Shown here piece by piece: positions 9,871 through 63,910 of a DNA stretch of 64,000 nucleotides. Position 1 is the stretch's first letter; each line of letters begins with the position of its first letter. A program made the position numbers and the translations under genes. The notes below the pieces were generated by a model, which saw nothing but the letters and a program-made list of their open reading frames with translations, was not told where the DNA came from and ran no database searches. The stretch lies in contig CM049307.1 of assembly GCA_026874595.1 (NCBI GenBank), positions 46,125,678-46,189,677 of the forward strand. Reading direction: 5' to 3'. The DNA is from Sipunculus nudus (taxonomy: Eukaryota > Annelida > Sipuncula > Golfingiida > Sipunculidae).

Positions 9871-10250
9871 CAGCATATGTTAGAGAAGAAAGTGACCAGC
9901 ATTTTATAATATTGTCTCAATAAGGCAATATCAAAATATCTTGTTTACAAATCAACATTTCACCAATATATAAGAAAATACCAAGAAACTGTCATATAAT
10001 ATTTATCCATGGCCCTGATCAATTTCTGGCAGAGAAATAAGATAATTCCTATGACCATTCAGATATTATAGGCAGGTCATTTGGCTCCAAAATCAAGTAT
10101 AACAAGTGACCCATGGGTCATGACGCTCAGCTGACTGGGAAGAGATTCGCAAAAGGAAATTTTATCATCTCAATGGTAGTATATACCCATTCAACTGAAA
10201 CATCAAACAGATTAACCAACAGGCTAAGATTGTGTCTGTATTTATATATC

Positions 10251-11330
10251 TCAAAAATAGAGAAAAAAATTTGTAAACTTTAAAAAAAATACAGGTGGCT
10301 CCACCAGTCTGCAGAAACTAATAAAAACACTTAATGGTCAATATCCATGCAAAGAATCATGGTGATCTCTGCATTAGTTGTTTAGATACTTCAGCTTTTG
10401 AATCAAATTTTCCATTATTCTGAGGTATACTTTGGAGTCCTATAGCTTGAATGATATGGGTAACAGAGGCCTAATTTCAGGTTTCCACAGGCACTTTTCA
10501 TGAGCCTCCTTGCATGACAAGAATGAAGATTCTAGGTGAAGTTGTTACAATTTGTGCCATGTTAACAGATGACAGCATCCTTAAAGGTCTCAAAAATAGA
10601 GACAAAAATTCGAAAAAAAAGAATAAAATATAGGTGGCACCACCAGTCTGCAGAAACTGATGAAACACTCCATATTCAATATCCATGCAAAGAATCATGG
10701 TGATCTCTGCATTAGCTGTTCAGATACTTCAGCTTTTGTATCAAATTGTCCATTATTCTGAGGGATACTTCGGAGTCCTATAGCTTGAAGGATATGGGAA
10801 ACAGAGACCTAATTTCAGGTTTCCACAGACACTTTTCATGGGCCTCCTTGCATGACAAGGATGAAGATTCTAGGTCCAGTTGTTACGATTTGTACACTGT
10901 TGACAGATAACCACATCTTTAATAGTCTCAAAAATAAAGAAAAAAAATTCGAAAAAATCGAAAAATACAGGTGGCCCCACCAGTCTGCAGGAACTGATGG
11001 AATATCTCATGATCAATATGTATGCCAAAAATCATGACCATCAGTGATGTAGTTAATGAGATATTGAAGTTTTTGTATGAAATTTTTTACTATTCTGGGG
11101 GGTACTTTGGGGCCCCATAGCTCGAAGGATATGGGTACTACAGAGACCTAATTTCTGGCTTAAAAAGGAGATTTTTCATGGACCTCTCAGAATGCCAAGT
11201 TACAAGATTCTAGGTCCAGCGGTTGAGATTTGTGCCTGATTAACGAACGGACAGACGGACAGACAGACGATGGACAAAGAGTGATCGCTATAGCTCAGAT
11301 GACTTTCAGTCAGCTTAGCTAAAAATGCTG
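10251..11330 (+). repeat. Trimeric tandem array of a ~338-bp repeat with a GACAGACG-type tail
   Basis: Three diverged copies begin near 10251, 10589 and 10927. Each opens with CTCAAAAATA, an A-rich run, then a conserved CCACCAGTCTGCAG block. They continue through a shared CCTATAGCTTGAA/GGATATGGG segment and an AGATTCTAGGT segment. The third copy is followed by a GACGGACAGACAGACG-like 4-bp periodic stretch and GATCGCTATAGCTCAG. This resembles a dispersed molluscan repeat family with internal tandem duplication. Overlapping open frames here are shadows of the repeat. Confidence 0.7.
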
Positions 11331-25805: not shown

Positions 25806-27899
25806 ATGTGCGTTGTTTCTCTCCTGGACAAACCCGTTCTTACTGGAGACACAAGACCCCCCTTGGCCCCTGCTGTATTATTTGCTGTGATACCATCAAT
25901 AATGCCACACAGCATGACATGTGAGTACCTCCACTGGAGCTTGGTTACAATGAGGCAAACCTTGGTTGAGCTATTCTTCCCGAATAAAACCTTGTATCTC
26001 CGTCAACAATGGTCAGCCATCTTGATGATGGCACTGAGACCATGTTGTCCCCATGAAAAAAACACACACTGCAATTTTTGTTATTCACAGATACCCTTTG
26101 ACATTTGTACTTCTTTAATCCTCTTATATGACAACCCTACATTGTGCCCTTTTTCCCCTTTTCCCTTGACAATGACTTTTATCAAAATTTGTCAAACATT
26201 AGATGTTCTATGTTCCATGTCCTTATATATTTATATATATATATAATTAAAGTTAAACTAAAACTTGAATGCTTAAATTACTGTATGGAAATTTTATTGA
26301 ATTTAGTTGATTTTATTAATCAATTTTAATCTTAAGACATTATGATGGATAAAGTATCCAGGTTTGATGATTTCTTAAGAACTTAGTAAACTTAATTTAA
26401 TTGATTTTTTAAACATTATTGCATGGATCTTCTAAAATATGATTCAAAACACAGAGCACTGTAGAAGTGAGGCTGTGCTCTTCCACTGAACCAGGCCTGT
26501 GAAGAACCAGTATTAATAAGGGACAGATGACAGACAACAATGATATCCATCATTAATGATAATGATAACCATCGCAATGATAGCATAAGCTAACAGGTTC
26601 ACTAAAAAGAAAGGTGTGAAAGACAATTCTGTCTACAGACACACACAAAAATCTAAAGTCCATATATTGCTGATTATTTCCATGTCAATATGCAAAGACA
26701 AAATCCAGCACAGGATGTAGAAATCCAATAAACAATTCTCGCCAACCAAAAGGGCAAATACATTACCTTTTTCAAATTTACATAAGTAATATATTTGGAT
26801 AAAAATGGTCTCTGAACTTCTGAAAGATAATTCTCAAGAACTTTCAAGCAGCTCAACAAGTCTAATATCCCCTCACCAGAGGCAGATATTAGGTATATAA
26901 ATAATATAGAAAAGTAATGTCCCAAATTTTTTTTATAATGATAAAATATAACATATTTGGGGCAAAGAAAGTTCCCTGACATTTCCCTGACTCCAAAAGG
27001 GATACTCATTTTCCAGTTGTTTTTCCCTAATTTCCCAGAGCCCTGGGAAGCCTGTATTTACAATAACATCTTAAATATCATCAAATAACTACCTACTTCC
27101 ATGCTTTTAAAGGCTTTTGGTGCCCTGGATCAAATTAACGGCAAGAGATTACCAGCAAATCAGGGAAACCTGAAACATTATTTAACAAGCCACGTAAAAA
27201 TTGCAGTGAACTGATCACAGAATGGCAGATCACAGGGAAATCTGCAGATTTTTTCCACGAAATATTATTATAATATATCAGGTGGGGGTAGGATCTATAA
27301 TTTGTATTTTTTTTCAATAAACATGTTTTGTATAGATGGGTGTTGTTTCATCACCCTTTGCTTTAGACAATTATTCCTTTCTTTTTATTAGAGGCTCAGG
27401 TAAGAACTTGATTTCTTTACTGAATTTTATTTTCAGTTTGATCCATGCCAAAGCTATAATAATGAAAGATGAAAGTGGACTAAGAAAATACGTTTAACTG
27501 TCAGAGACAATTTAAAGCAAGTACCTCCAATGCCTCAGCAACACATTTAAGACTTCTTAAATCAGGGTTGGCAAACTTCCAGGAAGATAGGTATTTCTTC
27601 TCTTCCCAGAGAAGAAAAGGAAGTTTCTGGGAAGAAAAGGAAGTTAAGGAAAATGATATTTAGGTGCCTGTCTTTGAGCGTACCAGTATTGTTTTGCACT
27701 CTGGGGTAAAATATTGAATATAATGTATCAACACTGTATTTTACATGGCAACCACTGATAATTTGATCAAAATATATATAAATGTAAAATTATTTCAAGA
27801 TTGTCTTTAAAAGTATGAAAGGTGTGAACAAATATGCTAAAGCACAATACACAAAGGGGAGCTTACTAATTCAGCCCTCAAACCTTGGGAAATCCAATA

Positions 27900-34004: not shown

Positions 34005-34013
34005 AAAGGATAT
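34005..34013 (-). other. U12-type (AT-AC) 5' splice site of the calcium channel gene
   Basis: Immediately after the codons for ITW and the first two bases of a Pro codon, the minus strand reads ATATCCTTT. This is the exact 9-base consensus for the donor of AT-AC minor-class introns. Homology to T-type channels also breaks off here: the family continues Pro-Trp-Phe, whereas read-through would give Pro-Tyr-Pro-Phe and no GT donor occurs at this point. Minor-class introns are known in voltage-gated sodium and calcium channel genes. The matching acceptor and branch site were not found in the window. Confidence 0.75.
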
Positions 34014-34276
34014 GGCCATGTTATGATTTTCAGACACCAGTTCCGGGGAAAGGTATCCTGTGGGAAAAATCGCAGCGCTTTGGGTATAAATCCAGGGAAT
34101 GGTAAATCTTCATACTCCTCGTCATCATCATTATCACTATCGCTCGATGAGGACTCCGACTCCGAGTTTTCATAGGGGTCAACCTGGTCATGGTCTGGGC
34201 TCTGACATATGCCTGTGTTTTGCTGTGCTGTGCTACTTTCTTGCAGACCCAGAACTTGTAAAGGCTGATCTGCCAT
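34014..34276 (-). CDS. First coding exon, T-type (Cav3-like) voltage-gated calcium channel alpha-1
   Basis: The exon encodes about 87 residues of the cytoplasmic N-terminus of a four-domain low-voltage-activated calcium channel, the pore subunit for calcium entry in excitable cells. The start ATG at 34276 is the first after an in-frame TAG about nine codons upstream. Residues 1-35 are unremarkable. They are followed by an acidic Ser/Glu/Asp tract (NSESESSSSDSDNDDDEE). The conserved block is LPFPGFIPKALRFF, then a Gln and PRNWCLKIITWP. It aligns without gaps to the segment just before transmembrane helix IS1 in vertebrate CACNA1G/H/I proteins (LPYP..., PRNWC..., NP before WFE). The exon ends in phase 2 at a U12-type donor. 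Domains I-IV are not in the window. The family call is firm; the exact paralogue name is inferred. Confidence 0.85.
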
Positions 34277-48227: not shown

Positions 48228-49570
48228 TTCTTTCTTCCTCTAATTATTTTCAAAACCATCCATTACATTTTTTCTCCTTCTTCCTTTTCAAAACCATCGA
48301 TAACATTTTTTCTTTGCCATGAGCTTCCCTGGACTGGATGCCCTGAAGACCATCTACAGCAGCATCCTGACTCAGCATCTACAAATGGGTAGCTTCCAAC
48401 AGAGCTGCATCAAACTGGCAGCAGGAATAGTGGACGCAGGGCTGGTCCTCCACAACAAGATTGCCAGTATCTTCCTCCCTACAGCCGTCAAGTTCCACTA
48501 CATCTTCTTCTTCCTTATCAAAACCATCGATTAAATTTGGTTTTCTCCTTCTTCTTTTTCAAAATAATCGATCACATTTTTGTTTTCTCCTTCTTCTTTT
48601 TAAAAATAATTGATAACATTTTCTTTCTCCTTCTTCTTTTTCAAAATAATCGGTTAATTTTGTTTTCAACTTCTCCCTTTTCAAACCATCGATTAAATTT
48701 TGTTTTCTCCTTCTCCTTTTTTTCTAAACTATCGATTAAATTTTGTTTTCTCCTTTTTCTTTAAAAAAAATCGATAATTTTTTTCTCCTTCTTTTTCAAA
48801 AGCATCGATTAAATTTTGTTTTCTCCTTCTTATTTTTTTCAAAACCATCGATTAAATTTTGTTTTCTCCTTCTTATTTTTTCAAAACCACCGATTAAATT
48901 TTGGTTTCTCCTTCTTCTTTAAAAAAAAATCGATAACATTTTTTTCTCCTTCTTCTTTTTCAAAATAGTCGGTTAATTTTGTTTTCTACTTCTCCCTTTT
49001 CAAACCATCGATTAAATTTTGTTTTCTCCTTCTTTTTCAAAAGCATCGATTTGATTTCGTTTTCTCCTTCTTCTTTTTCAAAGCCATCAAAAACAATTTT
49101 CTTTTCTCCCCCTTTTTTTTCAAAAGAATCGATTAGTTTTGTTTTCAACTTCCACCCTTTCATCCCATCGATCAAATTTTGTTTTCTCCTTCTTCTTTTT
49201 CAAAGCCATCGATATCATTTTTCTTTGCTCTCCCTTCTTTTTCAAAAGAATCGATTAGTTTTGTTTTCTACTTCCACCCTTTCAAACCATCGATTAAATT
49301 TTGTTTTCTCCTTCTTCTTCTTCAAAGCCATCGGTTACATTTTTCTTTTCTCCCCCTTCTTTTTCAAAAGAATCGATTGGTTTTGTTTTCTACTTCCACC
49401 CTTTCAAACCATCGATTAAATTTTGTTTTCTACTTCTTCTTTTTCAAAACCATCGATTAAATTTTGTTTTCTCCTTCTTCTTTTTTCCAAACCATCGATT
49501 TTATTTTATTTTTTTTCACCGTCTTCCTTTTCTAAATTAAACATCGATTAAATTTTGTTTTCTCTTTCTC
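48228..49570 (+). repeat. Pyrimidine-rich minisatellite with ~40-bp units and a ~121-bp higher-order unit
   Basis: The basic unit is of the form CAAAACCATCGATTAAATTT followed by TGTTTTCTCCTTCTTCTTTTT, repeated roughly 30 times. Nearly every unit carries ATCGAT or a close variant. Between about 49079 and 49440 a three-unit higher-order repeat recurs, with CAAAGCCATC at 49079, 49201 and 49322 (spacings 122 and 121). The plus strand is almost pure pyrimidine between the ATCGAT islands. Long frames here (up to 146 codons on the plus strand) are repeat artefacts. A dynein fragment interrupts the array near its start. Confidence 0.9.
48313..48507 (+). pseudogene. Axonemal dynein heavy chain fragment embedded in the minisatellite
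   Basis: About 65 codons are open and read FAMSFPGLDALKTIYSSIL, then TQHLQMGSF, then LHNKIASIFLPTAVKFHYIF. This matches the AAA3-region signature of axonemal dynein heavy chains (DNAH9/11/17 type: FPG-DAL-IY-IL-QHL ... LH-KIA-FLPTA-KFHY-F). In the family it is followed by NLRDL; here it runs directly into CTTCTTCCTT of the minisatellite with no GT donor. A TAA lies four codons upstream of the homology. Codons are GC-rich, unlike the surroundings. It is most likely a gene fragment captured at CTTCTT microhomology and not expressed as dynein. No frame breaks are visible inside the fragment. Confidence 0.8.
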
Positions 49571-62549: not shown

Positions 62550-63910
62550 TTATTCGGTGTAAAACAGAAACCCGGAGAAGGTAACCAGTGGAAAGTCCGG
62601 GTAACTGTTGATAACACCTTTCATCAGACGAGTGAAGATTTCATCACCAACTTCCAGGCGGAGTACTACGGAATTCCCTCCGGTTGCCCACCCAGGGTCG
62701 CCGAACGTCGCACTCGCCATGGTCTCTGTATTCCTCCGCAGGTCAACCCTGACGTCTTCTTCGTTTGCACCTTCCACGCTGAAGGTGAAAAAGTAGACCC
62801 CTCTTGTTGGTGCGCGGAAGGCGCCGGTTGAGCCCGAAAAGGCCAATCCGTCGTTGATACGTACTTTGTCGTAGACGATGTTTATTCCTACACCAGTGAG
62901 TCCCGTGTCCCGGTATGCCGAAAATGCCACATTTTGTGCTGCCTGAAGCCCTTCAAAATGAAGAAAATGTAAAAGAATATTACATTTCCCTCGCAAACAC
63001 GCAACGATACATACCTTCAGTGATTCTTGACCAACGACAGGTCATAGGCCAAAACCACTATCCCGGATAAACAACAAAATTGTAAGAGTTATATAGTATA
63101 TCAAAAAGTATATATAAAGCATTTATTGTACAGACCTAATGACAGTTATTTATCCTTCACTTGCCTGTCTCTCTGAGCAAACCAGAAAACGTTCGCCTTA
63201 AGTTAAACCATAAAGTATTATGATATTACCTCAGTTTTCTGCTATGTAATATTCTACAGATATTTGTTATAGAGATTATATTAATTAATAAATTTCTATT
63301 TCGTAAAATGGATATTGCAGATTTTTTCAACTGTATCAGGCTTTATCTCGATTAAAGATAGGATGGAATTTTAATGTTATATAATTTGGAATTCATCAAA
63401 TTAAATTTAATTGTTAAAAAAAAAAAAACCCGAAAAGTATCAGATTAAGTCCTCGGCGATAGGGGTCGCTAGTGTGGGAAAGACTTATTCCTCACCAACT
63501 CTCCTCTCCAGCGCTTCCAGCCTTTGTTTCAGTAAGCGGATTTCCTGTTTATCAGTGTCGTCTGCTAAGCACAGTTGGGTGAAACACAACTACAAGACAC
63601 CAAGATATATTGGTGACTTCTGCACATATGTATGTTGTTTCTATGAATTGAAGACTAAGAAAAAACAAAAGAGTCACATTTAATTTTAATCAGTAATTTA
63701 TCTCAAATTTGTATTTCAGTTCTTTAGGTATTTTTATGAAAGGTAAAACGTCGTTATAATGAAGTTTAAATAAAAACGAAGACAAGTCGATGTCACTGTT
63801 TTGTTTACCTCTCTACAAGGTTCCAGCATGAATATATGTGAAATAAGATGAACAATAAAATAAATGACAAGCGAACTTACCAAGATTGATATTCTTGCTA
63901 AAAATATCAT
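62550..63910 (-). CDS. Secreted C1q-domain-containing protein (3 exons, 174 aa)
   Basis: Exons, read on the minus strand, are 63910-63881, 63589-63496 and 62950-62550. Both introns are canonical: GTAAGT...AG (63880-63590, phase 0) and GTGAGG...AG (63495-62951, phase 1). The joined frame is 525 bases with one stop. Residues 1-19 are a signal peptide (MIFLARISILL start, cleavage after CLA). Residues 23-41 form a short coiled coil (EIRLLKQRLEALERRV) for trimerisation. From about 46 onward is a C1q head with VAFSAYR, IVYDKVRINDG, GAFRAPTRGVYFFTF, GGNSVVLRLEVGDEIF and a terminal FSGFLFYTE. There is no collagen stretch, as usual for molluscan C1q-domain lectins, which bind microbial or self ligands in haemolymph. 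The start is supported by an in-frame TGA nine codons upstream. AATAAA overlaps the stop, and ATTAAA lies at 62532-62527. Confidence 0.93.
62950..63496 (-). other. Intron 2 of the C1q gene
   Basis: The intron proper is 63495-62951. GTGAGG donor, AG acceptor after a pyrimidine-rich TTTTCTTCATTTTGAAG. AT-rich with an A/T homopolymer near 63417. No other feature seen. Confidence 0.85.

Follow-up and report, generated by a model that had tools for sequence, protein, structure and literature searches.

The minor spliceosome recognizes its introns through U11/U12, and U4atac/U6atac then act together with U5. In humans, every sodium and calcium channel alpha subunit gene is stated to have at least one minor intron (PMC6865273), and the same is given for the CACNA1 genes as a count of ten out of ten (PMC8767276). 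According to the latter source, rat cardiomyocytes in which U6atac is knocked down retain minor introns of Scn5a and Cacna1c. One such case is the D1S1 intron, a U12 intron that PMC6259924 places in Nav1, Nav2, Cav1, Cav2, and Cav3, and for which it gives ATATCCTTT / TTCCTTRACYCY as the consensus; the pond snail is among the genes in the Figure 5 alignment of that paper. The D1S1 U12 intron is stated more briefly for Nav/Cav genes in PMC10120453, and likewise for L-type Cav and Nav channels in PMC3634016. For the T-type channel, PMC2831892 gives intron 1 of 23 in the fly as AT-AC and as U12 in both fly and human. The same source describes U12 introns that switch subtype (AT-AC and GT-AG), and reports that loss of U12 introns is more common than conversion.

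The locus described here lies in a 64-kb stretch of DNA (the window; C2:46125678-46189677), and is almost certainly where the conserved D1S1 minor intron begins (its 5' end) in a T-type calcium channel gene, Cav3. Compared with the Cav3 intron as presented in PMC2831892 and PMC6259924, it has the same gene, the same first-intron position before IS1, AT-AC termini, the ATATCCTTT donor and the TTCCTTRAC branch; it belongs to another genome and is 61.6 kb long. Since the position and class of the D1S1 intron in animal calcium channel genes are already published, the feature is a known one, and only the copy of this species is additional. The features within the window are as follows.

34014 to 34276, minus strand: the exon with which the coding sequence of a Cav3 (T-type) calcium channel alpha-1 gene begins, with the ATG at 34276 and the CC of a Pro codon ending at 34014 (phase 2).
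34005 to 34013, minus strand: U12-type 5' splice site ATATCCTTT, directly at the end of exon 1, with its 3' partner found.
1 to 34013, minus strand: the first 34,013 nt of the AT-AC intron, which is 61,559 nt long and continues to C2:46098132.

The first coding exon is 263 nt long, made up of 87 whole codons plus CC, and has an in-frame stop upstream of its ATG. We call it exon 1 in the coding sense, as a non-coding exon may lie further upstream. Its product reads MADQPLQVLGL...LPFPGFIPKALRFFPQDTFPRNWCLKIITWP, with CLKIITWP at the C-terminal end. A Pfam scan of the exon gave no family. In a phmmer search of the PDB (177,635 distinct sequences), four entries were listed at E <=10: the Cav3.1 structures 6kzp and 6kzo (E ~2e-4), the Cav3.2 structure 9ayg (E 0.07), and an unrelated splicing factor (E 2.3). 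The Cav3 matches extend as far as the last Pro (query residue 88), which corresponds to residue 100 of the 6kzp chain.

Seven exons, the last one partial, join into a single open frame that begins at the N-terminus, covers domain I and reaches into the I-II linker. From exon 2 through domain I, this frame scores 715 bits with Cav3.1, 702 with Cav3.3 and 697 with Cav3.2, against 267 bits for Cav1.1, the best non-T-type channel. Comparison of the domain I portion thus identifies the gene as Cav3. The linker contains APRASPEVSD, and APRASPE is given as a conserved motif of snail and mammal Cav3 (PMC3376122). The initial annotation had called the gene molluscan; a search of the assembly for the molluscan haemocyanin domain PF14830 gave no match, but as none of 14 control genomes matched either, this result carries no weight for or against a mollusc.

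The 9-mer ATATCCTTT at 34013-34005 of the minus strand begins at +1 and contains the U12-type donor motif ATATCCTT. The initial annotation had proposed a Cav3-like gene whose exon ends at an AT-AC minor-class donor, and both proposals agree with the sequence; its coordinates, 34005..34276, are correct and comprise the exon plus the nine bases of the donor. It had also claimed that reading through the donor would yield a spurious end to the product, and the frame indeed runs on as PYPFSTKSTYFT before a stop. The donor motif by itself has no significance. The window has 7 copies of ATATCCTT where 3.86 are expected, a count reached in 9 of 100 shuffles, and the genome has 44,397 copies of ATATCCTTT on its two strands, or 1.6e-5 per position. 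The donor is nevertheless more than a chance match, because it is placed exactly where the homology ends and because a branch site and an AC acceptor in the right phase are present at the other end of the intron.

That other end lies outside the window. Within the window, tblastn with Cav3 queries at E <=1 returned exon 1 and, besides it, a single weak match elsewhere (E 0.35), and a very permissive tblastn gave no convincing exon 2 among the matches listed. In the assembly (1.43 Gb in 153 contigs), a Cav3.1 domain I query identified exon 2 (WFERISMGVILLNC...) at C2:46097870-46098130 on the minus strand (E 7e-34). Its first base is C2:46098131, 61.6 kb downstream of exon 1 and 27.5 kb past the window edge. 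The minus strand reads ...CTCGTTATG TTCCTTAAC ATTTCTCAC up to the splice point, and A TGG TTT GAA CGT ATC AGC ATG beyond it. Exon 2 is thus preceded by TTCCTTAACATTTCTCAC, in which the branch site TTCCTTAAC is a full U12 consensus (TTCCTTRAY) and the acceptor is AC, with 10 nt from the branch A to the splice point.

The predicted junction between exons 1 and 2 is TGGCC joined to ATGGTTTGAA. The joined codon, CC plus A, encodes Pro in phase 2, and the protein would continue as ...CLKIITWP-WFERISMGVILLNC. In the 6kzp alignment, the Pro is residue 100 and the Trp that follows is residue 101; as the two adjoin in the same chain, the junction matches Cav3.1 without a gap. What the initial annotation had foreseen for this end of the intron is found there: its WFERISM-like next exon reads literally WFERISM, a branch site (TTCCTTAAC) and an AC acceptor stand upstream of it, and the intron falls immediately before IS1 in phase 2 of the Pro codon, as CC and A are followed by TGG TTT GAA. 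Its reading of the intron as minor agrees with the elements at both ends, namely the donor ATATCCTTT, the branch TTCCTTAAC and the AC acceptor. We infer that in the cell the minor spliceosome removes the 61,559-nt AT-AC intron, which would join ...KIITWP to WFERISM... inside the Pro codon, immediately ahead of transmembrane helix IS1.

An alternative is that a cryptic GT donor further downstream marks the end of the exon and the gene is spliced by the major spliceosome, the AT-AC match being due to chance. GT-type sites (patterns GTRAGT, GTATGT, and GTACAT) are present 20, 142, and 175 nt into the intron, the first being GTACAT preceded by AAAAA, and the lack of enrichment of the bare donor 8-mer in the window would fit a chance match. 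Use of the donor at +20 would, however, add YPFSTK, to which nothing corresponds in Cav3.1, and the sites at +142 and +175 lie past an in-frame stop. Nor would a cryptic GT donor account for the phase, the complete branch site or the AC acceptor, or for the presence of the same elements in the Cav1 and Cav2 genes described below. We regard this alternative as very improbable. Still more improbable is an AT-AC intron of the rare U2-dependent kind, removed by the major spliceosome: such introns are known in sodium channel genes, for example SCN4A intron 21, in a class with G at +5 (PMC2831892), but +5 is C in the Cav3 intron, which matches the U12 consensus in full at both the donor and the branch site.

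Removal by the minor spliceosome at the AT-AC termini is thus the preferred reading, and it bears on annotation. A pipeline restricted to GT-AG introns would misplace the end of exon 1, and could lose the N-terminus of the channel across the 61.6-kb gap. The intron also contains one strict branch-plus-AG decoy, near window position 27,650 on the minus strand (TTCCTTAAC...CCCAG). It is likely due to chance, and tblastn of the window gave no channel match there. Given this decoy and the three GT-type sites, alternative splicing of the Cav3 D1S1 intron may occur.

The length of the intron is not special in this gene, as intron 2 is 59,973 nt long. The six introns crossed in domain I measure 61,559, 59,973, 14,024, 9,990, 2,849, and 6,380 nt; intron 1 alone is AT-AC, and the other five are GT-AG.

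The genome has genes for RNAs of the minor spliceosome. Hits above the Rfam cut-off were obtained for U6atac (at least two, 100.5 and 97.8 bits), U4atac (at least one, 88.4 bits) and U12 (at least two, 118.6 and 117.2 bits). These copy numbers are lower bounds because few first-look candidates were scored, 44 to 49 of 64,055 to 112,270 in each search. The same searches matched none of 14 control genomes, so that these give no measure of their sensitivity. The two U6atac hits contain AAGGAGAGA, whose AAGGA is complementary to TCCTT of the donor. The U12 hits have GTAAGGA near their 5' end, and TAAGGA in this segment is complementary to TCCTTA of the branch site.

The D1S1 intron is also present in the Cav1 and Cav2 genes of the same genome. 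In Cav1, it is an AT-AC intron of 2,221 nt with donor ATATCCTTT, branch TTCCTTAAT and acceptor AC; the upstream exon ends in ...ACAGAATGGAA and the intron begins with ATATCCTTTTTCTG, while at the far end TTCCTTAATTCAGCTGTTTAC is followed by GCCATTTGAA. In Cav2 (on C5), it is 25,322 nt long and belongs to the GT-AG subtype of U12 introns (GTATCCTTT...TTCCTTAAC...AG), with ...AGAATGGGG followed by GTATCCTTTCAAAT at the first boundary and TTCCTTAACCAGATATCAG by ACCATTTGAG at the second. The assignments follow from the joined pieces. For the Cav1 piece the best match is Cav1.3, whose residues 105-159 align with query 1-55 at 84.3 bits, while Cav2 reaches <=51.8. The Cav2 piece aligns over all of its 59 residues with its best matches, Cav2.3, Cav2.2, and Cav2.1 (99.6 to 96.8 bits), while Cav1.3 scores 42.4 bits. 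In both genes the intron interrupts the residue homologous to that in Cav3, between W-X and [P/W]-F-E, in phase 2, and the donor and branch elements are shared. The differences are in subtype and size: Cav3 is AT-AC like Cav1 but, at 61,559 nt, far longer, and it differs from Cav2 in both respects. Each of the three Cav genes seen thus retains a U12-type intron at D1S1, two of them AT-AC and one GT-AG. The intron was almost certainly inherited from a time before animal Cav genes diverged into Cav1, Cav2, and Cav3.

The situation is different in the sodium channels. Three Nav-like loci were seen, at C3:6.28 Mb, C3:87.73 Mb, and C8:45.98 Mb; in each of them the D1S1 intron is absent and the exon is unbroken through the position. 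Against the PDB, the three exons match sodium channels best, near the chain start where domain I begins, with scores for the sodium and the best calcium channel of 79.9 vs 30.1, 69.2 vs 26.8, and 62.1 vs 32.2 bits. Given its absence from these loci, not every gene of the channel family in this genome has the intron. In the titles and opening abstract lines of the papers listed, no report of loss of the D1S1 intron from Nav genes was found. It is conceivable, if rather unlikely, that in this lineage the ancient minor intron persists in the three Cav genes seen, as AT-AC in Cav1 and Cav3 and as GT-AG in Cav2, and has been lost from all three Nav loci seen, in which case expression of Cav but not of Nav would depend on the minor spliceosome here. 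The contrast between Cav and Nav in one genome offers a small test case of intron loss versus retention.

Several other loci came up in the search for D1S1 exons. Those at C9:13.87 Mb and C13:66.58 Mb were dropped because a stop lies inside the matched stretch. Matches at C3:6.24 Mb, C3:87.69 Mb, and C5:43.37 Mb span the D1S1 position, and their translations look like later domains of the same channels. A further match across the position, at C15:17.75 Mb, is weak (E 0.55). At C2:40.26 Mb, an ion-channel-like open frame (SSSFNILILITIFANAIFMAIE...) runs through the D1S1 position and matches the Nav query.

The window has a few features of its own. Rfam scans at gathering thresholds and tRNA scans of its 64 kb gave no hits. 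The places of ATATCCTTT listed on C1 are in many cases paired, ~340 bp apart, and window positions 10249-11155 hold a 338-bp tandem repeat with two of the seven ATATCCTT matches, 337 bp apart; a repeat family may therefore carry the 9-mer. Within the intron, at 33892-33872 on the minus strand, 21 nt resemble a micro-exon, TTTTTTTTTCAG being followed by CAAATATGGATCATCTTTAAG and GTAAGTG, which is probably due to chance. A tandem array with a 40/122-bp unit occupies 48503-49569, with 26.2 copies of the 40-bp unit, and leaves long frames open on the plus strand. Finally, an open frame at 62550-63041 on the minus strand encodes a C1q domain (PF00386, E 5.5e-20).
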